Origin: Flavobacteriales bacterium
GTDB taxonomy: Bacteria; Bacteroidota; Bacteroidia; Flavobacteriales_D; UBA2798
Direction: 5' to 3'
Assembly: GCA_019694795.1 (NCBI GenBank)
Contig: JAIBBF010000008.1
Span: forward strand, 1 to 64,000
Length of the DNA stretch: 64,000 nucleotides
Positions 1,881-14,749 of the stretch are shown one piece after another; positions within the stretch are counted from its first letter, which is position 1; each line of letters starts with the position of its first letter. Both the position numbers and the translations under genes were made by a program. A model generated the notes under the pieces. It was not told where the DNA came from. It saw nothing but the letters and a program-made list of their open reading frames with translations, and made no database searches.

Positions 1881-4800
1881 TTATAAGCGGATAAAGCGTG
1901 CGTGATTTCCTTGCTTGTCGATAATGAAATATAAACCGGGAACCATATCCTGAAGCGGAATACGATTTGTGTTTTGCCGGTTAAGAATTAATTTGCCGTT
2001 CACATCATAAACCGAAAAAGTGGTACTTCGGTTTAAAAACAATTCTTCTCCGTCTGCAGGATTCGGATAAGGAATTAATTGCTCTGCAATGGCGGTTTCT
2101 TCTGCCATGCTTGTCATTAAATTACTCATTCCCGGTGTAGCATAATAAAACCAAATCTTATCGTCGCTTCCATCCGGATAACATCCATAGGAAACATTAT
2201 CCGTCATGCCTTCATAATGGATGCTGTCCACCATCGTAATTCCGTCGGGCAGGAATAAATACAGACTTCCGGCAGCAGCGGGTAATGTGAAATTGCAGTG
2301 CAGGTTCCCCTGTGCAAGATCATTGTCGGCCCAGAATAATTTAAATCCGTATGGAGGAATTTTGGTGCTGGAATCGCCGGCTATAATTTGGAATTGGGTA
2401 GGCTGAATCAAACTTGTACTTACAAAATAATTGTTCAGATCGATGGTGTCGGAACCGGGATTATAAATTTCAAACCAGTCATCGTATTCACCGTAGTTGT
2501 CGGCAATAAACGAATTGTTTTTAGCCATCACTTCATTAAATTTTAAATCGCGAAGTGGATCATAAGACGGATCAATGACAAAGAGTGCAGTAATGACTGA
2601 ATCCGTATTGAGTGTTACCGTAATTTCATCGGTAGTTATTCCGGTTCCCTGCCATTCTAAAAATTGATAACCCGGCATGGGAATGGCTTTTAGTTGAAGG
2701 GGAATGTTTTCATAATATAATCCAGTCCATGGGTAGGTGGGACCTTCCACTCCGGGTAATTGCGGGTGGATTAATAGGCTGTTTATTTTTACCCGACCCA
2801 TCACGGTGTCATTTACATTCAGCGTGATTTTAATACTGTCGCCCAGCGAAAAATAGGCTTGAAACTGATTGCGTTGTTTTTCGGGACGATACCTGGCGAA
2901 GGAATCCAATTGGTAAATAATGGCATCCCATCGTTGCAAATCCGGAACTTCATTTGCGCGATCGGCGAGGGAGGTCGACATGGAAGGATATCTCCAGCGT
3001 TCTACATGCCGTTGCATTTCGGGTCGGTAGATGTTATCGCTTTGTTGTACGATCGACTGAATACGGTTTTCTTTGAACCAGGAATTTAATAAGTCGCAAT
3101 AGCGATTGATAAAGGCGGTTTTAAAATCATTATTCGTTAATAGTCCGCGTAAAATTTTCGTATAACTTCCGAATAGAGGTCCCGTTAATGTGGCTTGTTG
3201 TATGCCATTCATACTCGGAAAAACATTGCTGCAGGAACCGCCAAAACTTCCGTCCTGATCGTAAAATATCCAACGGAAACGACCGTCTTGTCCCGCCGGG
3301 GCCAACGGATTAAAACTGGTGGATTTACGCCACATGCGAGTATTGCTGTTGGGCCAGTCGCCATTACCAAAATATATTTCACTTAATTGGTAATCGATAA
3401 AATTGTCGACATCCATCTGCGTCTTTACCCAATCATAATTGGAAGAAATTGTCATATCGCTTCCATCAATAAAATCTTTGAGGTTTTGAAAAAGTAAGGA
3501 ATCACTTAAGGTGCCTTCTTCTACATCACCTTCTTTATCGAGGGTGGTCACTTCCTCTTTCGGTATAGAATATTTATTGGCAAAATAATCGGCATTCAGA
3601 TTTTCTTTGATGGAATGCAATCCCCAATATTCTCCATTGATAAAAACAACGACCTGACGCACATTCATGTGATCGAGAGGAATTCCTTCTACAATCAACG
3701 AAGAAATATCGTCGCGCGGAATGCAATCCGGCCGATGTCCGTTACTCCGTAAAATCAGATTATCGAAACGGTTTTGTGTTTTTCCGGGAAATAAAATGTA
3801 ATCGAGATGACCCTTACCGTATTCTTCTCTGAAATTCAGTTTTAAACTTTTCTGGCAACTATGTCTTCCACCGCCACCGTGTGTACGTATTCCAACTACC
3901 GACTCAAATTGGGTGATGCCGTTTACATCAATCAAAGCAATATTCGCTTTGCGTTCCCAGTTATCACCCACTTCATTGTAATTTCCGTCAATGGCATTTC
4001 CCCAGACATAAATTCCGCGGTCGTCCGAAAACAAATCGCTGCTATCGGCAATCAGGGAAAAAATGGGTAGAGAAAAATTGCTGTTCAATTGCGGATCAAC
4101 CATCACCGCGCTCGTGGTGCTTTCGCTGGGAAGTGCACCCGGATAATTCGGAAATGCTTTTGCTTTTACCACATTAAACCGATACACATTCGAATAAGGA
4201 GGTAACCATCCTCTGGTATTTGCACGTGCCGAATCGTAAGATCCCAATGGATAATTGAAGGAAGGATTCGTAGGAATTAAACTCCAGTAATTTCCTGCAT
4301 TGGTTCCGATAAAACTCAACATGGTGCCTGCTGTTAATACAGGATCATTGACATCTGGTTCAGATCCATCGATGGTATAGTGTATGGTGACATTCGGATC
4401 GTGATGCAAAAAAGATAATAACTGATCGGAAGAATAAACTCCCGTTGAGGGTTGAATAGCCGGAGCAACAGTTACTCCCCAATAACCCATGCCATTGTTG
4501 GGATCATTAAACGTAGGCGAAGAAAAAAATGAAAGTACATTATTGGTATTTCTTCCGTAAGAGTAGGGGGCAGGACAATAAGGCAAAGTCATTGAATCTA
4601 GCAAATTCAAAGCCGGATCGGTCAGGTATAAAAGTTCACCTTGCGACAATGAAAAATTGGAATGGAATTCCGGATTCACCAGATTTTTTCCGCTGGCAAA
4701 CACGATCACCACTGCACCGGGTGATACATTTACAGAGGGAAAGGTCCACTTGGAAGGATTACCGATTTTATCACTCAGGTGATAGCCGGCAAGATTAACG

Positions 4801-4961
4801 GAGGTAGAACCGTAGTTGCGAATTTCAATCCAGTCTTCAAACGAAGATTCAAAATCCATTACCGGACCTAAATTGTTTATCACCACTTCGTGAATACGAA
4901 TCTGTGCCGATGCGAAATGAAAGGAAAAACAAAAAAGGAAAAATAAAATCCGGTTTCTCAT
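1881..4961 (-). CDS. CotH-kinase family T9SS-secreted protein with lamin-tail domains
   Basis: The 1026-aa product has a signal peptide (cleavage after FASA near residue 19), a lamin-tail domain (about 22-150), a chitobiase C-terminal-like region (about 165-290; IHYTIDGSEP), a CotH-kinase domain (about 300-620, with a GGGGRHS turn, NGEYWGLHSIKEN and FYDQDGSFGG), a Gly/Trp repeat-type beta domain (about 715-795), a second lamin-tail domain (about 805-935) and a type A T9SS sorting domain (about 955-1026; PYPNPADGE ... GLYFI). CotH proteins are atypical protein kinases; secreted bacterial members often combine with lamin-tail domains. The domain order and sorting signal imply export to the cell surface. 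It has its own candidate promoter, so it may be independent of the exopolysaccharide operon upstream. Confidence 0.88.
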   Translation of the reverse strand: MRNRILFFLFCFSFHFASAQIRIHEVVINNLGPVMDFESSFEDWIEIRNYGSTSVNLAGYHLSDKIGNPSKWTFPSVNVSPGAVVIVFASGKNLVNPEFHSNFSLSQGELLYLTDPALNLLDSMTLPYCPAPYSYGRNTNNVLSFFSSPTFNDPNNGMGYWGVTVAPAIQPSTGVYSSDQLLSFLHHDPNVTIHYTIDGSEPDVNDPVLTAGTMLSFIGTNAGNYWSLIPTNPSFNYPLGSYDSARANTRGWLPPYSNVYRFNVVKAKAFPNYPGALPSESTTSAVMVDPQLNSNFSLPIFSLIADSSDLFSDDRGIYVWGNAIDGNYNEVGDNWERKANIALIDVNGITQFESVVGIRTHGGGGRHSCQKSLKLNFREEYGKGHLDYILFPGKTQNRFDNLILRSNGHRPDCIPRDDISSLIVEGIPLDHMNVRQVVVFINGEYWGLHSIKENLNADYFANKYSIPKEEVTTLDKEGDVEEGTLSDSLLFQNLKDFIDGSDMTISSNYDWVKTQMDVDNFIDYQLSEIYFGNGDWPNSNTRMWRKSTSFNPLAPAGQDGRFRWIFYDQDGSFGGSCSNVFPSMNGIQQATLTGPLFGSYTKILRGLLTNNDFKTAFINRYCDLLNSWFKENRIQSIVQQSDNIYRPEMQRHVERWRYPSMSTSLADRANEVPDLQRWDAIIYQLDSFARYRPEKQRNQFQAYFSLGDSIKITLNVNDTVMGRVKINSLLIHPQLPGVEGPTYPWTGLYYENIPLQLKAIPMPGYQFLEWQGTGITTDEITVTLNTDSVITALFVIDPSYDPLRDLKFNEVMAKNNSFIADNYGEYDDWFEIYNPGSDTIDLNNYFVSTSLIQPTQFQIIAGDSSTKIPPYGFKLFWADNDLAQGNLHCNFTLPAAAGSLYLFLPDGITMVDSIHYEGMTDNVSYGCYPDGSDDKIWFYYATPGMSNLMTSMAEETAIAEQLIPYPNPADGEELFLNRSTTFSVYDVNGKLILNRQNTNRIPLQDMVPGLYFIIDKQGNHARFIRL

Positions 4962-5021: not shown

Positions 5022-6332
5022 TTAAAGGCGCATTTCCTTGGCGTGGCGACTCGTCTTTGCCGGATTCCAAGGGTCCTTATAGGAGGCTTTGAAGAATAGT
5101 TCCGAAAAATAGGCTGCACTCCTTACAATGCGGAGGAAATATCCGAAATAGAAAACCATCAAAGGAATGTAAATCAGGAAATAGGTTATAGGCGCATTTT
5201 TTCTGGCACGAAAGGGTGAAAAGAATAAAAATTTGAAATAATTGTTGACCGAATACAAAAAGAAATTCATCACAATAATGTATTTCAACTGTGAAGGAAA
5301 ATCCACCAGCATATCGAACAAATAAAAATACCAGAAAACATTCAGCACTAAATTGTAAGTGATGTTTTCGGCAAACGAAATAAAATTTCCGAGTTTGAAA
5401 GATTGATTGGGGACAAATACATCACGGTGTTTACGCAAGCGAAAGCGGATTAATGATTTATCCCAGCGCAAACGTTGCTTGATTAATTTGCGGAAGGTAT
5501 TGGGAACACTGGTCTGACAAACCGCCAATGGTTCAAAATAAATTCGGTATCCGAGTTTTCTGATTTTAACAGTGATATCGCCGTCGAGTCCCGGACCAAT
5601 ATCCCAACCGCCAATACGGTCCATTACATCTTTACGAAATGCACCAAAGGCTCCGGAAATAACACGGTAAATTCCCAAATGCGAAGTCACGATTCGTCCC
5701 ACCGATATGGTATCGGAATATTCAATGGCTTGAAGTGTAGTGGCCAGACTTTCTTTATAATTCCTTACCTGAACGTTTCCACCAATAGCACCAATGCGTT
5801 TATCGAAATAAAAGGGCACCAGAATATTTTCAATCGCATCGCGGTCGTAGGAACAATCGGCATCGAGGTGTACAATGTATTTTCCTCTGGCGTAGCGGAG
5901 TCCGAGATTTGCAGCAGATGCTTTTCCTCCGCGAACATCATTGCGAAGGAACATACTGATCAATCCGTTTTTCTGCAGGTTTTTACAAATCTCCGGCGTG
6001 GCATCGTCTGAACCGTCATCAATAATGATTAACTCATAATTGGTGTAGGTTTGTTCACGAAGTGATTTGGCAAGCTTAAAAATATGTTTTCCTTCATTTT
6101 TACCGGGGACAATAATCGATACTAAAGGCGATTCATCCCACATCAGTTTACGCGCTTCTTTTATTTGCTTGCGTTGTACCCAGGATTTAAATTTCCAGGA
6201 AAAAAGGGCAATGGTTTCAACAAAAACGTAACGGAAAAATTCAAATAAAACGTAAAACCAGAAAATACGAACCAATTTCCAGTATCCTACTGAAGCAAGA
6301 TAAGCGAAAAAGTCGTCCCAGAATTCTACCAT
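5022..6332 (-). CDS. Processive-type family 2 glycosyltransferase (exopolysaccharide synthase)
   Basis: The 436-aa protein has an N-terminal membrane segment (about 18-40), a GT-A domain (about 70-300) and several C-terminal membrane helices (about 315-410). The motifs of processive GT2 synthases (PgaC/BcsA/Alg8 type) are present: SIIVPGKNE near 72, IIIDDGSDD near 102, the DAD metal site at 157-159, an LDGD acid motif at 249-252 and QRLRW at 286-290 (the QxxRW product-binding motif). It should polymerise a nucleotide-sugar at the inner membrane and pass the chain out. Its start overlaps the last base of the upstream zinc-ribbon/GGDEF-like gene, and two export genes lie upstream in the same tight run. 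The sugar substrate cannot be read from sequence. Confidence 0.88.
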   Translation of the reverse strand: MVEFWDDFFAYLASVGYWKLVRIFWFYVLFEFFRYVFVETIALFSWKFKSWVQRKQIKEARKLMWDESPLVSIIVPGKNEGKHIFKLAKSLREQTYTNYELIIIDDGSDDATPEICKNLQKNGLISMFLRNDVRGGKASAANLGLRYARGKYIVHLDADCSYDRDAIENILVPFYFDKRIGAIGGNVQVRNYKESLATTLQAIEYSDTISVGRIVTSHLGIYRVISGAFGAFRKDVMDRIGGWDIGPGLDGDITVKIRKLGYRIYFEPLAVCQTSVPNTFRKLIKQRLRWDKSLIRFRLRKHRDVFVPNQSFKLGNFISFAENITYNLVLNVFWYFYLFDMLVDFPSQLKYIIVMNFFLYSVNNYFKFLFFSPFRARKNAPITYFLIYIPLMVFYFGYFLRIVRSAAYFSELFFKASYKDPWNPAKTSRHAKEMRL

Positions 6333-7759
6333 TAATCCCCAAAATCTTTGGTGAGTTGCTGAATCTGCAATTCGTGCGAAAGTTTGGTGTTCAGCGGGAG
6401 GACATTGTACTTGATGTCCACTTCAAAATTCTTAAAGTTTTTACTGATCAGTCGCGAAATAATTCCGCAAATCTCCTTTAAGATATTATCTGCAACTTTC
6501 GTTGGAATTTCATTGAGCGATAACAGTACAACATTCACGTTCTGGAACGAAATCAAATCCGACGAACGAATATTTCTGCGGATAATTTCTACCAGGTCGC
6601 GCAATAAGGCACGCTGAGAACTGGCTCCGATCATGGAATATAATTCCCCTGCATTTTTTAAATAGATTCCTGCAACGTTCGACGAATAATCGGTTTGTTT
6701 TAAACGTTCAATCTCATACTTGATCATCGTTTTAAACGTCTCCAGTTTTACGGTACCGATAAAGTCCTCAATGTCTTTAGATGTACTTACATATCCGGTC
6801 TGTGCACTGGTTTCACCTTTTTTGGTGATGCGGTACGATTTAATGTGTTTCGGAATCAGGTACTGCACATCGGTGTCCTGCGTACACACCATGCATTTCG
6901 CTTTAACACTGATATCCTGAAATTTGCTGCTGCATTTTCCGCAGGTGTAAATAATGGAAGGTTTGTCGTAATCTACACCAATGTGACGAAGCATTTTATT
7001 GCATTTCGGACAATTCAGCTGGTTGTCGATCTCATTTTTAAAATCGGAAATAGGTCCGATGTAAGCGCATGGAAAATGGTGAATCAAATCTTCACTGTCG
7101 GCATTCGTGCTGCCGCAATGTGGACAAACCTCTCTAAAGCTTAAATATCCGCCTGAACAGGAATTACAGAGATAAATCCGGTCGAGGTACTCTCCGGCGA
7201 ATAATCCTTCTTTCTCTGCAATTTCCATAATGTCGAGCACCTGGAATTCGTCGCGATAATTAAAATTGATAGAGATTTCGGGAAATGTATAACCGATTCC
7301 TGAATTGAAATAGGGGAGGGGATTTAATTCTTTTTTATCGCGGGTGTAAAGCAGATTCAACACTTTATCGATCATCTGTGCTTCGAACGAAAGTGATTTT
7401 GTAAATGATAAATCTGCAATTTTTAGATAAATCTGCTGTATCACCGGAATCACCATTTTTACCTGATCGAGGGAATAAATTACACCGTCAATCAGATTAT
7501 TTACCAATGGATCGCGGTTTTCATTTCCCTTCAGCATAAAGATGGGCTTCAGGTAAAATTCGGGATTCAGATGCGCTCTGATTTTTTTGAGAATATGCAA
7601 GGAGTAATTTAAATCGCCCGACTCAATGATAATCGCATCATAAATCAAGGCATGCTCCGTACGGAATGATGATCCCGTGTAGGCAATAAAAAAACGATAG
7701 CCTTCGAATTCGAGTACGTTTTCATTGACTTCAAACAAATGTTCTTGTCCGCTATCCAT
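6332..7759 (-). CDS. Zinc-ribbon protein with degenerate GGDEF domain; candidate c-di-GMP receptor
   Basis: The 475-aa soluble protein has three parts: an N-terminal alpha/beta domain (about 15-115) that may be receiver-like, a cysteine-rich block (about 195-295) with CxxC pairs at 198/201, 212/215, 250/253, 273/276 and 289/292 plus Cys231, and a C-terminal GGDEF-fold domain (about 325-475). In the last, an RSSD motif (398-401) sits exactly five residues before the place of GGDEF, as the inhibitory RxxD site does in diguanylate cyclases, but the active-site sequence is NVNVV (407-411). It therefore cannot be a cyclase but could bind c-di-GMP, as PelD does. The Cys block resembles the TackOD1 output domain in type, which I cannot confirm. 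It sits between the membrane-fusion and glycosyltransferase genes. Confidence 0.72.
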   Translation of the reverse strand: MDSGQEHLFEVNENVLEFEGYRFFIAYTGSSFRTEHALIYDAIIIESGDLNYSLHILKKIRAHLNPEFYLKPIFMLKGNENRDPLVNNLIDGVIYSLDQVKMVIPVIQQIYLKIADLSFTKSLSFEAQMIDKVLNLLYTRDKKELNPLPYFNSGIGYTFPEISINFNYRDEFQVLDIMEIAEKEGLFAGEYLDRIYLCNSCSGGYLSFREVCPHCGSTNADSEDLIHHFPCAYIGPISDFKNEIDNQLNCPKCNKMLRHIGVDYDKPSIIYTCGKCSSKFQDISVKAKCMVCTQDTDVQYLIPKHIKSYRITKKGETSAQTGYVSTSKDIEDFIGTVKLETFKTMIKYEIERLKQTDYSSNVAGIYLKNAGELYSMIGASSQRALLRDLVEIIRRNIRSSDLISFQNVNVVLLSLNEIPTKVADNILKEICGIISRLISKNFKNFEVDIKYNVLPLNTKLSHELQIQQLTKDFGD

Positions 7760-7760
7760 A

Positions 7761-8837
7761 TCAGAATTTCGATTTGGTTATGTTTACACTCATCTTGTAA
7801 AAGGCTTTCCAGGTTCCAAGTTCAGCGCTATCCAGTGGGAAAATATCGGCAACCAGACTTCTTGTCGTTGGCTCATATTTTTTCTGGAATTCCTCCGGCA
7901 ATGTATTCGTTGCGAAATAAAAACGACGAATATATCCCCGGCTGCTGGATCCATCTGGAAATTCAATATTTACTTCATCCCCCTCGTGCAACTGATTCAT
8001 GTCTTCCTGCTCGAAAAATGCTTTGATAAAAATATTTTGCGGTTGGTGAATCGACATGATCACTTCCGATTTCACTGCGACTTCAAAAGGCTGAAAATTA
8101 ATTTTGGTAATGGTTCCGCTCAAGGGCGAATAAAATACTTTTTTACCATTGTCATCCCCACCGGCTCCTCCGTTATTGTTGACTTTCATGTTCGCAGGAG
8201 CGTTTTGTCCACGCATACTGTAGAGTCGACCCAAATAAGTTTTACTCATTCGGATGTCGTTTTGCAATTTTTCTATTTCGAAATGCAGCGATGCAATGGA
8301 ATTTTCCAATTGATCGAGTGTTGATCGGGGAATGATATCCAGGATCACTTCATTGCGTGTTTGTTCCAGTTTTCCTTCTTGCAACAAAAGCATTTCCTGA
8401 CTCTCCTTTAAGCGGATTTCATTTCCTGCAATTTGTTTGCTGAGATTATAAATTTCACGCTCTACCCATTCTTTATCGCCTCCGCCCATACTCATGGCTG
8501 CAGATCCACCGTTGGAGCTGAATCGACCGAATGCATCTTCATCTTCGAAATACGTAAAGAGTGAATCGCCTTTTTCAACACTTTCCCCCTCGGCAACATG
8601 AAACTCAAGAATCCGGCTGTCGTCGGTATTCATGATGTTTACTTTTTCAAACAACACTTGTCCATCCGCATCGATGTATATGAATTTGTGATACACATAA
8701 CGCAGAAAGAAGAAAAGAATCACTACCAGAATGATAATATAAATAAGGCGGTCCCAGTTAAACGGCACACGCGATTTCTGATCCTGTTCCCAGGTTCGTA
8801 TCATCGAATTTCCACGCTGAAAATTGATGTTTTTCAT
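7761..8837 (-). CDS. HlyD/Alg44-like periplasmic membrane-fusion protein
   Basis: The 358-aa protein has one N-terminal membrane helix (about 31-52), followed directly by half of a biotinyl-lipoyl domain (GESVEKGDSLF near 80), a helical hairpin (about 125-200), the second lipoyl half (FYSPLSGTITKI near 235) and a beta-barrel domain (HEGDEVNIEFPDG near 285). This is the layout of HlyD/MexA adaptors and of the periplasmic part of alginate Alg44. It should bridge the inner-membrane synthase and the TolC-like channel encoded upstream, whose stop overlaps its start by 4 nt. It lacks a cytoplasmic PilZ domain, so any c-di-GMP control must come from another subunit. A glycine-rich insert lies around 222-229. 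Confidence 0.82.
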   Translation of the reverse strand: MKNINFQRGNSMIRTWEQDQKSRVPFNWDRLIYIIILVVILFFFLRYVYHKFIYIDADGQVLFEKVNIMNTDDSRILEFHVAEGESVEKGDSLFTYFEDEDAFGRFSSNGGSAAMSMGGGDKEWVEREIYNLSKQIAGNEIRLKESQEMLLLQEGKLEQTRNEVILDIIPRSTLDQLENSIASLHFEIEKLQNDIRMSKTYLGRLYSMRGQNAPANMKVNNNGGAGGDDNGKKVFYSPLSGTITKINFQPFEVAVKSEVIMSIHQPQNIFIKAFFEQEDMNQLHEGDEVNIEFPDGSSSRGYIRRFYFATNTLPEEFQKKYEPTTRSLVADIFPLDSAELGTWKAFYKMSVNITKSKF

Positions 8838-10891
8838 CGGAGATTCCTTTCATCCATTTCAATCAGTCCACCCAAATCGTGAATGGCAAACTGATCGTAA
8901 TTGTTTTTATGATACATATCAATCATGTATTTTTCCATGGCCGATTTAGTTCCAAAATCCTTAGTGCGGAGGGCGACCACTATCTTATCTTTTAGTGCTG
9001 AATAAGGTGCTATTTTACGTTCGATATATTCCGGTTTAATGTTTTCATAAGCCATAAAATAAACCTTGTCACAAAGTGAAAATATGGATTTCATGTTTTC
9101 TTCCGGATAATGCAAAGGCACAGAAACACTGAGTTCCCAATGATGTTCTTTACAGTAATTCCCGGTTTGTAACAACATGGCCTGATAGCTTTGCAAATAA
9201 CTTTCCTTCTTGCTGTCCCAATCCGGAAATGTATGCGGTTCCACATCAAGATGTATGCCTTTAATGGTGGAATCGGTGAAATTCTTTAATAAAAAAGCTA
9301 ATTCTTCCGCCGGATTTTTCTGAATGAATTGGTTATCGCCAATCATCAGGTGGACATCCACTTCCGGAATTAAAGTGATCAGCTCACGGATTTTACGGGT
9401 GTTCTCTTCGTCGCGGTTAAGCGAAATCACCACCTTGTCGAATTTATTGTAACGGATGTATTCGGCAACAAATTCAACCGATTTTTTGGCCAGTACCGTC
9501 GACCAGATATACACGCTTTTTTCAGTCATGGCGTCGAGATCAAAATAATTGGGAATGTCGAACGATTGTGCAATTTCTTCGGTTTTGTTTCTTCCGCTCA
9601 TGGTATAAATGCGAAGTAATTTTAGATAGAGACTCTGACGTATATCCAGCAATTCCATCTTTACGGCAAGCATGTCGTCCAGTAAAGTGAGTCCTTCAAT
9701 CGGATTAAAACGCAGGGGATCCAAACGAAGGGTGGCATTCATTTTACGGAGTAATTCCTGGTACAAAATAAATTTCTGGTGGAATGAAATATACTGCTTC
9801 AGTTTGTATCGGTATTCATAACATTCGTTCAGTAATTCTTTTTGTTTGCCTTCGAATTTTTGAGATAAGATGTACATCGATTCCTTCGCTCTTGCTTCAA
9901 TCAATTCATTGCGCTGATTCATCCGGAAGGGAATGGGCATGCTGAAGTTTACTCCCAGCGAAAAGAAGGAACGATTGCCCGGAACAATCAGATCGTAATA
10001 GTTATAGCGAAGAAAAGTAGATAAACGAAGATCATTCATAAACCGGTACTGCAATTGCAGATTTTCCAGGTATAAATTGGAAATACTGTCTCTGGAGGAA
10101 GAGTCGAGCCCGTAAAACACCGATGCATAGCGAATATCCAACAAGGGTAAATCAGCCGCCTGAATTTTCAGCGTGTCCGAACCCGAACCAAATTGCAGGT
10201 TGTAATCTTCATACACACGGGTCAATCCCTCAATCTCGGCCTTGCGCGATAAAACACGAATGTAATCTTCGCGACTTAAATACCTCGACAAATGCAGGCG
10301 TTCTGCTTCAATGCTTAGTTCATTCAACAAATCCCTGCGCTGCTGCAACACTTCCAGTTTGGCTTTGTTAAAAATGTAAATGATCGTGTTCCAGTTTACC
10401 GAATAGCTTTTCTCTTTCGATTCGCCGGAGGATAAATATTCGTTAATGCGAATGGAATTTAATTCCATTTGTTCCTGCGCACGGTTTTCAAAAAAACCAT
10501 TCCCTAATACATCCCAGTTCAACCCAGCCTGTAAGCGACGTTGATAAATCAGATTATCATCGTCCTCATTCAGCGAAGGAGTGAAATTCTGAAGAAAGGA
10601 AGCATTCATCGATAATCCTGGATCGCTATGATACATTGCCGCTTTGGCCCGGTGCACATCGTTTTCATAAAGATACGCATCATTATTGCGAAGCGTCCCC
10701 CCGAAAAGCGTTTCAACCTTTTGGATATCGGTCCCCCACTGTGGGTATTCCGCATAGGATTTGTAGGTTTCCCAGGTCGTACGAAGCTGAGAGATTTCCT
10801 GCTTTAGGATAATACTATCCTTCTGGGCAAAAGCAGAAAAAGCTAAGCCCAGCCATAGAATGGAGGATATGGTGTATTTGTTAAAAATCAA
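8834..10891 (-). CDS. TolC-like outer-membrane channel fused to a GH18-like TIM barrel
   Basis: I start the gene at TTG 10891, giving MIFNKYTIS...AFSAFAQ as signal peptide; an upstream in-frame TTG at 10915 lies inside a TATTTTTG box and is unlikely. The next part (about 30-445) is an outer-membrane efflux protein: long helices and a beta-hairpin (YNYYDLIVPGNRSFFSLGV). The last 225 residues form an apparent TIM barrel: strands KVVISLN, VDVHLMIG, GIHLDVEPH, LSVSVPLH, KVYFMAYE and KIVVALR occur in barrel order. LDVEP recalls the DxE acid of GH18 and FMAYE its strand 6. The channel would export polysaccharide while the periplasmic barrel trims or binds it. It overlaps the adaptor gene by 4 nt. 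The hydrolase activity is inferred. Confidence 0.75.
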   Translation of the reverse strand: MIFNKYTISSILWLGLAFSAFAQKDSIILKQEISQLRTTWETYKSYAEYPQWGTDIQKVETLFGGTLRNNDAYLYENDVHRAKAAMYHSDPGLSMNASFLQNFTPSLNEDDDNLIYQRRLQAGLNWDVLGNGFFENRAQEQMELNSIRINEYLSSGESKEKSYSVNWNTIIYIFNKAKLEVLQQRRDLLNELSIEAERLHLSRYLSREDYIRVLSRKAEIEGLTRVYEDYNLQFGSGSDTLKIQAADLPLLDIRYASVFYGLDSSSRDSISNLYLENLQLQYRFMNDLRLSTFLRYNYYDLIVPGNRSFFSLGVNFSMPIPFRMNQRNELIEARAKESMYILSQKFEGKQKELLNECYEYRYKLKQYISFHQKFILYQELLRKMNATLRLDPLRFNPIEGLTLLDDMLAVKMELLDIRQSLYLKLLRIYTMSGRNKTEEIAQSFDIPNYFDLDAMTEKSVYIWSTVLAKKSVEFVAEYIRYNKFDKVVISLNRDEENTRKIRELITLIPEVDVHLMIGDNQFIQKNPAEELAFLLKNFTDSTIKGIHLDVEPHTFPDWDSKKESYLQSYQAMLLQTGNYCKEHHWELSVSVPLHYPEENMKSIFSLCDKVYFMAYENIKPEYIERKIAPYSALKDKIVVALRTKDFGTKSAMEKYMIDMYHKNNYDQFAIHDLGGLIEMDERNLR

Positions 10892-10912
10892 TTGCAGCCC
10901 GTAGAGGGGTGA

Positions 10913-10920
10913 CAAAAATA
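10913..10920 (-). promoter_or_regulatory. -7 promoter box of the exopolysaccharide operon
   Basis: The minus strand reads TATTTTTG (10920-10913), a perfect TAnnTTTG box. No TTG lies at the ideal 19-nt spacing; the nearest is 14 nt upstream. The box contains the first in-frame TTG, which argues for translation starting further in, at 10891. Confidence 0.4.
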
Positions 10921-11023: not shown

Positions 11024-12355
11024 ATGCCGGAAAATAGGAGAATTCATAATGCACAGAGAATCGTTGTACTAACAGGTGTTTTCGCTGTGTGTTGCTTTAT
11101 TTTCTACGGCAATCGAAGCTCTTTTTTAAGCATTCTGATCCCATTTTTCATTCTTGGAGCGCTGAGCTTCTTACTAAGTTTTCATGAGAGCTATCGCTTG
11201 CGAAAAGTCAACACCATCCTTCTGGCGGGCATCCTGCTTCGGATTCCGTTCTTGTTCAGTGAACCAATTCTGAGTGACGATTACCATCGTTTTATCTGGG
11301 ATGCCAAACTTACGGTTGAAACGGATATTCACCCCTATCAATACCGACCCGAAGAATTAAAGGAAATGGCGGATCCCTTCTATATCAGGAATGCGGATTT
11401 GTACGAAAAACTGAATTCCAAGTCCTATTATTCGGTGTATGGACCTCTTAACCAGTTTTTATTTCAACTGCCGGTTGTACTGAGTAAACATCCTAAAACA
11501 CAACTTTTCATTTTTCATCTGCTTATTTTAATAGCGGAAATCCTGTTTTTTTTCCTCTTGCAAAAAATGCAAACCCATTCAGAAAATCGGTTTAGCCCAT
11601 TGGCTATTTATTTTCTGAATCCACTGGTTATAGTTGAACTCTGCGGCAATTTGCATTTCGAAGGATGGAGCATTTTACTTCTATTCAGCGCTTTGTTTTA
11701 TCTGCGAAAAGCAAAGCTCTTGCCTATGATTTTGTATTGGATTGCAGCCATTACCATGAAATTCATTCCGCTATTGGTGCTGCCTTTTGTTCGTCACTAT
11801 TTAAGCTGGAAACAGAGTTTTTTAAGTGGATTAAGCATCATTCTCCTGAGTGGTATTATCATGTATGGATATGCCGGGGAATATCTTTTGGGCTGGACAA
11901 AATCGCTCGGTTTGTTTGTACAACAATTCGAATTCAATGCTTCATTTCATTATCTCATTCGCGGAACGGGAAATCAGCTGTTGGGCTTTAATCCCTTGCT
12001 TTATACAGGTCCCGTTTTATTGGGTTTTCTCTGCATTTTTTTAGTGTATCTGGCATTGCGAAAACCTAAAAATACATTGGTCGGACTCTATGCTTCCATT
12101 CTTGTATTTTTTACCTTTTATTATGGATTTTCCTCTATTGTCCACCCCTGGTATTTAATTCCACTCCTGGCATTTGCGGCCTTGCTCGAATTAAAATCGT
12201 TTTGGTGGTGGACAACCTTATCCTTTTTATCCTATTCCTTTTATTCGTACGGCGAAGGAGAAGCATATTATATATACATTGGTTTAGAATACATCCTATT
12301 TGTCATTCTTCTGTTTTCCGAGCGGAAAAGCTTGATCTCCTATTTGAAAAAATAA
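11024..12355 (+). CDS. GT-C type polyprenol-dependent mannosyltransferase-like membrane protein
   Basis: A 443-aa protein with about 11-12 hydrophobic segments and a large loop after the first helices. The motif LSDDYHRFIWD (about 87-97) matches the acidic first-loop motif of GT-C glycosyltransferases that use polyprenyl-phosphate sugars (GT87/MptB/PIG-M kind), and the following loop (HPYQYRPEEL ... SVYGPLNQFLF) is typical of the Bacteroidota branch. It would add a sugar, often mannose, on the outer face of the inner membrane. It is divergent from the exopolysaccharide operon with about 100 nt between them, but no functional link is proven. Acceptor and donor are unknown. Confidence 0.72.
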   Translation: MPENRRIHNAQRIVVLTGVFAVCCFIFYGNRSSFLSILIPFFILGALSFLLSFHESYRLRKVNTILLAGILLRIPFLFSEPILSDDYHRFIWDAKLTVETDIHPYQYRPEELKEMADPFYIRNADLYEKLNSKSYYSVYGPLNQFLFQLPVVLSKHPKTQLFIFHLLILIAEILFFFLLQKMQTHSENRFSPLAIYFLNPLVIVELCGNLHFEGWSILLLFSALFYLRKAKLLPMILYWIAAITMKFIPLLVLPFVRHYLSWKQSFLSGLSIILLSGIIMYGYAGEYLLGWTKSLGLFVQQFEFNASFHYLIRGTGNQLLGFNPLLYTGPVLLGFLCIFLVYLALRKPKNTLVGLYASILVFFTFYYGFSSIVHPWYLIPLLAFAALLELKSFWWWTTLSFLSYSFYSYGEGEAYYIYIGLEYILFVILLFSERKSLISYLKK

Positions 12356-14077: not shown

Positions 14078-14749
14078 TCAGACTAAAATATATTCATCTA
14101 TAAATTCGCGAACACATGCTTCTCCTCCTTTACGGGAAAGAATTAAATGTGCATGAAGTTTAACGGAATTTACCGCATCGGCCGGACAAGCAGATAATCC
14201 TACAGCCTGCATTACATCTGCATCGGTAACATCATCGCCAATATAGGCTACCTGCGCTAATTCAATTCCCATGGTAGCACACCAGGCTTTTAAAACATCC
14301 AGCTTGGGAACGGTACTTACTTCAACCAGTTCAATATCGAGCAAAGATGCGCGGCGTGCAATGAGGTTTTTATTGTGACCATGCGAAATGATTCCGGTTT
14401 GAATTCCATTTTTCTTCAGGCGCTTAATGGCAATTCCATCTTTTGCATTGAACTTTTTGTATTCATCTCCACTCTCCGAATAATACATTCCGCCATCCGT
14501 TAAAACTCCGTCCACATCCGTAACGAATAAACGAATTCCTTTTTTTCTGATTTCATCGGCTTTGGCCAGACTCCCTTTTAACAGCAGATCGAGACTAACC
14601 TTAAAATGATCGGCAATCTTAACCAGATCATCAGGTGTGGGTCGGCGTAAATCTGAAAAATCAATTCCGATTTCATTGGCCAATGAACTTTGGTCGATTT
14701 TTTTCGATTTGCAGAGGTATTCCAGATTGCGGTAATAAGCGCTGTTCAT
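14078..14749 (-). CDS. HAD phosphatase (KdsC-like) fused to an N-terminal XRE-type helix-turn-helix
   Basis: Residues about 1-60 look like an XRE helix-turn-helix (SLANEIGID ... PTPDDLVKIADHFKVSLDLLL). Residues about 70-223 form a C0-type HAD phosphatase of the KdsC family, with nucleophile motif FVTDVDGVLTDGG, IISHG, a Lys at SRKGG near the C-terminus and the metal-binding GDDVTDADVM. KdsC removes phosphate from Kdo-8-phosphate in lipopolysaccharide synthesis. A separate single-domain KdsC is encoded at 27505-28023, so this copy may have a different substrate or a regulatory job. It lies 1 nt from the DAHP synthase gene upstream and is probably cotranscribed. The fusion is clear; the role of the HTH is open. 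Confidence 0.8.
   Translation of the reverse strand: MNSAYYRNLEYLCKSKKIDQSSLANEIGIDFSDLRRPTPDDLVKIADHFKVSLDLLLKGSLAKADEIRKKGIRLFVTDVDGVLTDGGMYYSESGDEYKKFNAKDGIAIKRLKKNGIQTGIISHGHNKNLIARRASLLDIELVEVSTVPKLDVLKAWCATMGIELAQVAYIGDDVTDADVMQAVGLSACPADAVNSVKLHAHLILSRKGGEACVREFIDEYILV

Follow-up and report, generated by a model that had tools for sequence, protein, structure and literature searches.

Can a polysaccharide synthase be served by an efflux-style exit route encoded in the same operon? The question is raised by four adjoining minus-strand genes at 5022-10915 of the window, the 64,000-nucleotide stretch of Flavobacteriales contig JAIBBF010000008.1 that was analysed. ORF calling placed a membrane GT2 synthase (436 aa) at 5022-6332, a regulatory protein (475 aa) composed of an N-terminal alpha/beta module, a TackOD1 zinc-ribbon and a degenerate GGDEF fold at 6332-7759, an HlyD-type periplasmic adaptor (358 aa) at 7761-8837, and, at 8834-10915, an outer-membrane factor of up to 693 aa that joins a channel to a barrel. 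The junctions, a 1-nt overlap between GT2 and regulator, a 1-nt gap between regulator and adaptor, and a 4-nt overlap between adaptor and channel, agree exactly with the original prediction. Pfam, AlphaFold2 and Foldseek likewise bore out the composition it had proposed, namely a TolC-like channel with a GH18-like barrel, an HlyD adaptor, a zinc-ribbon protein with a degenerate GGDEF domain and a QxxRW-type GT2.

To place the operon in a wider context, GTDB genomes were scanned, which gave 284 relatives, and 80 loci were kept; since TackOD1 similarity decided the choice, the evidence lies solely in whether the other three genes are present. The order TolC-HlyD-TackOD1-GT2 is complete in 75 loci and the remaining five are cut by contig ends, so the grouping is not due to chance, and the expected joint conservation of the four families was found. 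The genes mostly overlap or lie within 30 nt of each other, with TackOD1-GT2 overlaps in 53 of 78 pairs. Among 60 genomes of relatives, five, including the window genome, exceed the TackOD1 cut-off; in the other four, all four gene types recur in unchanged order, and the flanks differ except within the same genus. The four genes move as a unit within mostly different flanks, and in the phylum as a whole they are scattered, with 10 of 296 genomes exceeding the TackOD1 cut-off.

The GT2 synthase matches PF00535 (6e-29) and carries the motifs DDGSDD (6003-6020), DAD (5856-5864), D252 of GDIT (5577-5579) and QRLRW (5463-5477), the last preceding the membrane segments; one hydrophobic segment is N-terminal and the others are C-terminal. 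It is single-copy in the genome, the next GT2 scoring 81 bits versus 792. The nearest curated family, PgaC_IcaA, is the best NCBIfam match, at 176 bits and below its cut-off of 422.3. In a quick tree, the 27 GT2s linked to TackOD1 cluster as a single clade (SH-aLRT 98) that excludes PgaC/IcaA; the lipid-linked enzymes ArnC and WcaA also lie outside it, on long, poorly filled branches. Grouping with these two, which would have spoken against the original prediction, was not seen.

The adaptor matches HlyD_3 (2e-7) and has a single N-terminal TM helix at 8691-8747. Pfam detected no PilZ domain on it, so the label "Alg44-like" that had been attached to it is uninformative and adds nothing to HlyD. 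A TolC-binding motif, R-x3-L-x6-S, was only partially matched and unconserved, and is not claimed. The channel gene contains no ATG start; its ORF opens with TTG at 10915, and a TTG at 10891, which gives a better signal peptide, is probably the true start. Neither part of this protein has a Pfam match, but an AlphaFold2 model built from 68 sequences (mean pLDDT 88) consists of a TolC-type fold (residues about 30-445; 9581-10828), with four membrane beta strands and long helices, followed by a GH18-like (beta/alpha)8 barrel (residues about 455-692; 8840-9553). Foldseek matched the model to SilC/CusC/TolC at about 1e-11 and to GH18 chitinases at about 1e-4. GH18 enzymes carry a glutamate after strand 4, and in the barrel the motif HLDVEP (9236-9253) places E559, identical in 68 of 68 members, after strand 4, as the DxE glutamate of GH18. 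D557 (67/68), Y623 (67/68) and D653 (68/68) are near-invariant, and D680 is invariant or nearly so. TolC-fold channel and HlyD adaptor, as expected of a tripartite HlyD-TolC exporter, are encoded together.

TackOD1 is a domain of unknown function that was first noted in archaeal response regulators. It has been described as obscure in function (PMC5847659). In the window protein it spans 6827-7384 (PF18551; 3e-50; 171 bits against a cut-off of 32), and the cysteines of its CxxC-type motifs are invariant or nearly so among the 80 proteins. The model of this protein (pLDDT 87) has a C-terminal GGDEF fold at 6389-6754 that is devoid of the signature motif and matches GGDEF structures at about 1e-6 in Foldseek; in Pfam the relation is sub-threshold for the window protein, and 16 of 80 relatives match PF00990. 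The N-terminal module had been suspected from secondary structure to be receiver-like, an assignment that was dropped after profile comparison with true receivers (E 0.48).

Two variant forms occur in genomes that we take to be Balneola-type. In the first, a true receiver (PF00072) is fused before TackOD1 (6e-21 to 4e-25 in three proteins), and the window protein's N-terminal module is a separate gene of 109-119 aa. In the second (L106, L108 and L113), the channel is devoid of the conserved barrel and a TviB-like UDP-HexNAc dehydrogenase lies inside the operon, the copy of L113 being identified by sequence only; the barrel therefore appears dispensable for export in relatives of this type. In a further locus, L110, only remnants of the barrel are left. 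A lipoprotein-like gene of about 650 aa is also present in L108 (DUF4114) and L113.

Beyond Bacteroidota, a tblastn search of plasmids with the TackOD1 protein matched proteobacteria, and the best GT2 matches fell at those same loci. The TackOD1-GT2-HlyD core was found on both alpha- and gammaproteobacterial plasmids, from Plesiomonas, Photobacterium (twice), a Rhodobacteraceae strain, Phyllobacterium, Aminobacter, Roseibium, Palleronia and Methylocystis, and three gammaproteobacterial loci (L118, L124, L125) share the order TackOD1-GT2-HlyD. All four parts occur together on a plasmid of Aeromonas caviae, where the TolC-barrel fusion has 694 aa and contains GLHLDLE (profile match, E 8e-5), and at a Sinorhizobium locus found via GT2 alone, HlyD and TackOD1 stretches adjoin. 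At one Photobacterium locus (L125:5836-11688), the neighbour of the TackOD1-GT2-HlyD genes is a membrane protein with seemingly degenerate GGDEF/EAL-like parts. In archaea, a Halorussus locus reads TackOD1-DUF2334-GT2, and this haloarchaeal cluster (L147:4950-7911) ties TackOD1 to a glycosyltransferase; at two of three archaeal loci inspected, no GT2 lies beside TackOD1.

The view that no named system has this make-up has to be qualified: the component types are shared by mxdABCD of Shewanella oneidensis, genes SO_4177-SO_4180 (PMC3691769, PMC3409153, PMC7666153), and XcsAB-TolC is a proposed tripartite analogue (PMC12430437). Shewanella mxdABCD and cyanobacterial XcsAB-TolC are the closest named systems, the former being the best match by component types, as compared by description. 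The mxd genes are needed for biofilm in Shewanella (PMC7666153, PMC3691769); they unite a degenerate-GGDEF regulator, a membrane GT2 and an efflux-type adaptor in one four-gene cluster required for matrix build-up, and here, too, a degenerate-GGDEF regulator adjoins a GT2 and an HlyD-type adaptor. Gammaproteobacterial loci with an Mxd-like layout are homologous to the window operon according to sequence comparison and the GT2 tree. In contrast to the present carriers, which have no detectable c-di-GMP enzymes, MxdA binds c-di-GMP and CheY3 (PMC7666153), and MxdD is described as conserved but hypothetical, with no homology known (PMC3691769), which leaves a TolC-barrel counterpart in that cluster putative at most. 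For members outside Shewanella, no product or phenotype was found. XcsAB-TolC, a proposed cellulose exporter that is neither encoded together nor validated, combines a GT2 synthase, HlyD and TolC with the endoglucanase XcsC (PMC12430437); however, XcsA has PilZ or PCR domains, TolC lies outside the operon, and neither a TackOD1 protein nor a channel-hydrolase fusion is described. In rhizobial BgsBA, a mixed-linkage glucan synthase, the GT2 likewise has an HlyD-like partner (PMC9495663), but there c-di-GMP binds the GT2 itself, and TackOD1 and a linked TolC are not described. The PNAG system PgaABCD resembles the operon in the relation of its synthase to the window GT2 and in the hydrolase domain of PgaB; the window GT2 falls outside the PgaC/IcaA clade, though, and PgaABCD has neither HlyD nor TackOD1. 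PgaA is a TPR porin, and the outer-membrane parts of the Pel and alginate systems are not of the TolC type. Pel shares a degenerate GGDEF regulator, PelD, and alginate a membrane-fusion adaptor working with a GT2 (Alg44/Alg8) (PMC8461298). Unlike the window operon, Pel uses a GT4 (PelF) and has a GAF domain in PelD where TackOD1 stands here, with an RxxD that is not conserved in the present family, and Alg44 has the PilZ domain that the window adaptor lacks.

We therefore favour, with a probability of about 80%, an operon whose extracellular polysaccharide is made and exported via a tripartite route, with a barrel that trims or binds the chain and a TackOD1 switch driven by a protein signal. 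Conserved linkage, computed folds and the GT2 tree support the synthase-dependent pathway with an efflux-style route that had been proposed originally. Computation shows the composition, the linkage, the folds, the conserved residues of catalytic type and the lack of detectable c-di-GMP enzymes; export of a polymer, assembly of a complex, activity of the barrel and the direction of regulation are inferred. Working from the cytoplasmic face, the GT2 would polymerise a nucleotide sugar and extrude the chain via its own membrane segments, and the HlyD adaptor would connect the synthase with a trimeric outer-membrane channel of the TolC type, the resulting complex forming one continuous route; synthesis is presumed to power export. 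On the periplasmic side, the GH18-like barrel of each channel subunit may trim or bind the chain, a role for which Bcs, Pga and Pel have separate hydrolases. The TackOD1/pseudo-GGDEF protein would act as a cytoplasmic switch of the synthase, driven by a protein-borne signal, of the two-component type in relatives, and not by c-di-GMP here.

Control by c-di-GMP nevertheless has to be weighed, this being the messenger usually thought to switch on such polysaccharide systems. The pseudo-GGDEF domain could bind it at an RxxD I-site and activate the GT2, as in PelD or MxdA: the window protein has R398-S-S-D401 (6557-6568) at this position, RDTD is retained in gammaproteobacterial copies, which also exceed the GGDEF cut-off, and Shewanella MxdA is a c-di-GMP binder (PMC7666153). 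However, across 46 operon-carrying genomes GGDEF matches are confined to the TackOD1 proteins, EAL is found in none of 20 such genomes tested, PilZ is absent from the window genome, and the I-site aspartate is kept in 76 of 80 TackOD1 proteins but the arginine in only 26. Because several carriers are MAGs, absences in single genomes are weak evidence; the pattern over 46 is stronger. The PelD-like receptor role suggested by the original prediction was accordingly not supported in this lineage, where such control is very unlikely, while the retained RDTD and GGDEF scores make it plausible in the gammaproteobacterial copies. That the regulator's input is a protein signal is suggested by the receiver fusions, as well as by the published interaction of CheY3 with MxdA (PMC7666153).

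It is also conceivable that the GT2 is non-processive and glycosylates a lipid or small molecule, which the HlyD-TolC pair then pumps out. HlyD and TolC types do serve mostly efflux pumps, the GT2 has few close relatives among curated polymer synthases (best PgaC_IcaA, 176 bits against 422), and QxxRW by itself is no proof of processivity. Yet no dedicated ABC, MFS or RND transporter gene lies in the operon at the loci inspected, the GT2 taking its place, and separation from ArnC and WcaA, together with membrane segments following QRLRW, renders this alternative very improbable. A milder departure concerns the barrel alone, which might lack activity and instead serve as a sugar-binding or structural cap, holding or gating the chain. 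Its shortness (about 240 aa) and the lack of a glycoside-hydrolase Pfam match in all 68 members fit such a cap, whereas the near-invariance of the acid/base-type E559, D557, Y623 and D653 at strand ends, in the GH18 arrangement, argues for a hydrolase; we consider the cap possible, though at clearly less than even odds.

For the favoured polysaccharide export system, neighbouring genes hint at a polymer of amino sugar or its uronate, judging by the in-operon UDP-HexNAc dehydrogenases, deacetylase-like neighbours and the archaeal DUF2334. A deacetylase-like, T9SS-secreted family of about 700 aa lies next to or inside eight loci, upstream, downstream or within the operon, and polysaccharide deacetylase (PF01522) was recognised in two of four scanned members. 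In the window, the GT2 is followed downstream, at a distance of 60 nt, by a minus-strand gene with CotH kinase, lamin-tail (LTD) and T9SS sorting domains (1881-4961; Pfam), a probable accessory gene. In seven loci the operon likewise has a CotH gene behind it in the same orientation, although CotH matches number only 2-9 per genome. Directly upstream of the operon, 11024-12355 encodes a polytopic membrane protein, divergent and weakly similar to the mannosyltransferase MptA. A KdsC-like phosphatase with an N-terminal HTH-like extension (14078-14749) is shared with a sister genome.

More broadly, we tentatively propose, at somewhat under even odds, that TackOD1 is a dedicated control module of polysaccharide synthases in bacteria and some archaea, and that Bacteroidota run the synthase via a pseudo-GGDEF regulator without any c-di-GMP, the TolC channel having its own integral hydrolase. 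The operon suggests a function for TackOD1 and shows a GGDEF-derived regulator retained in cells without c-di-GMP enzymes. It offers a compact, jointly encoded version of the still unvalidated idea of a GT2 plus HlyD-TolC conduit and opens that idea to experiment in culturable carriers, among them Crocinitomix algicola, Brumimicrobium glaciale and Prolixibacter denitrificans, and Mxd-type matrix systems would extend from Shewanella to a large part of Bacteroidota.
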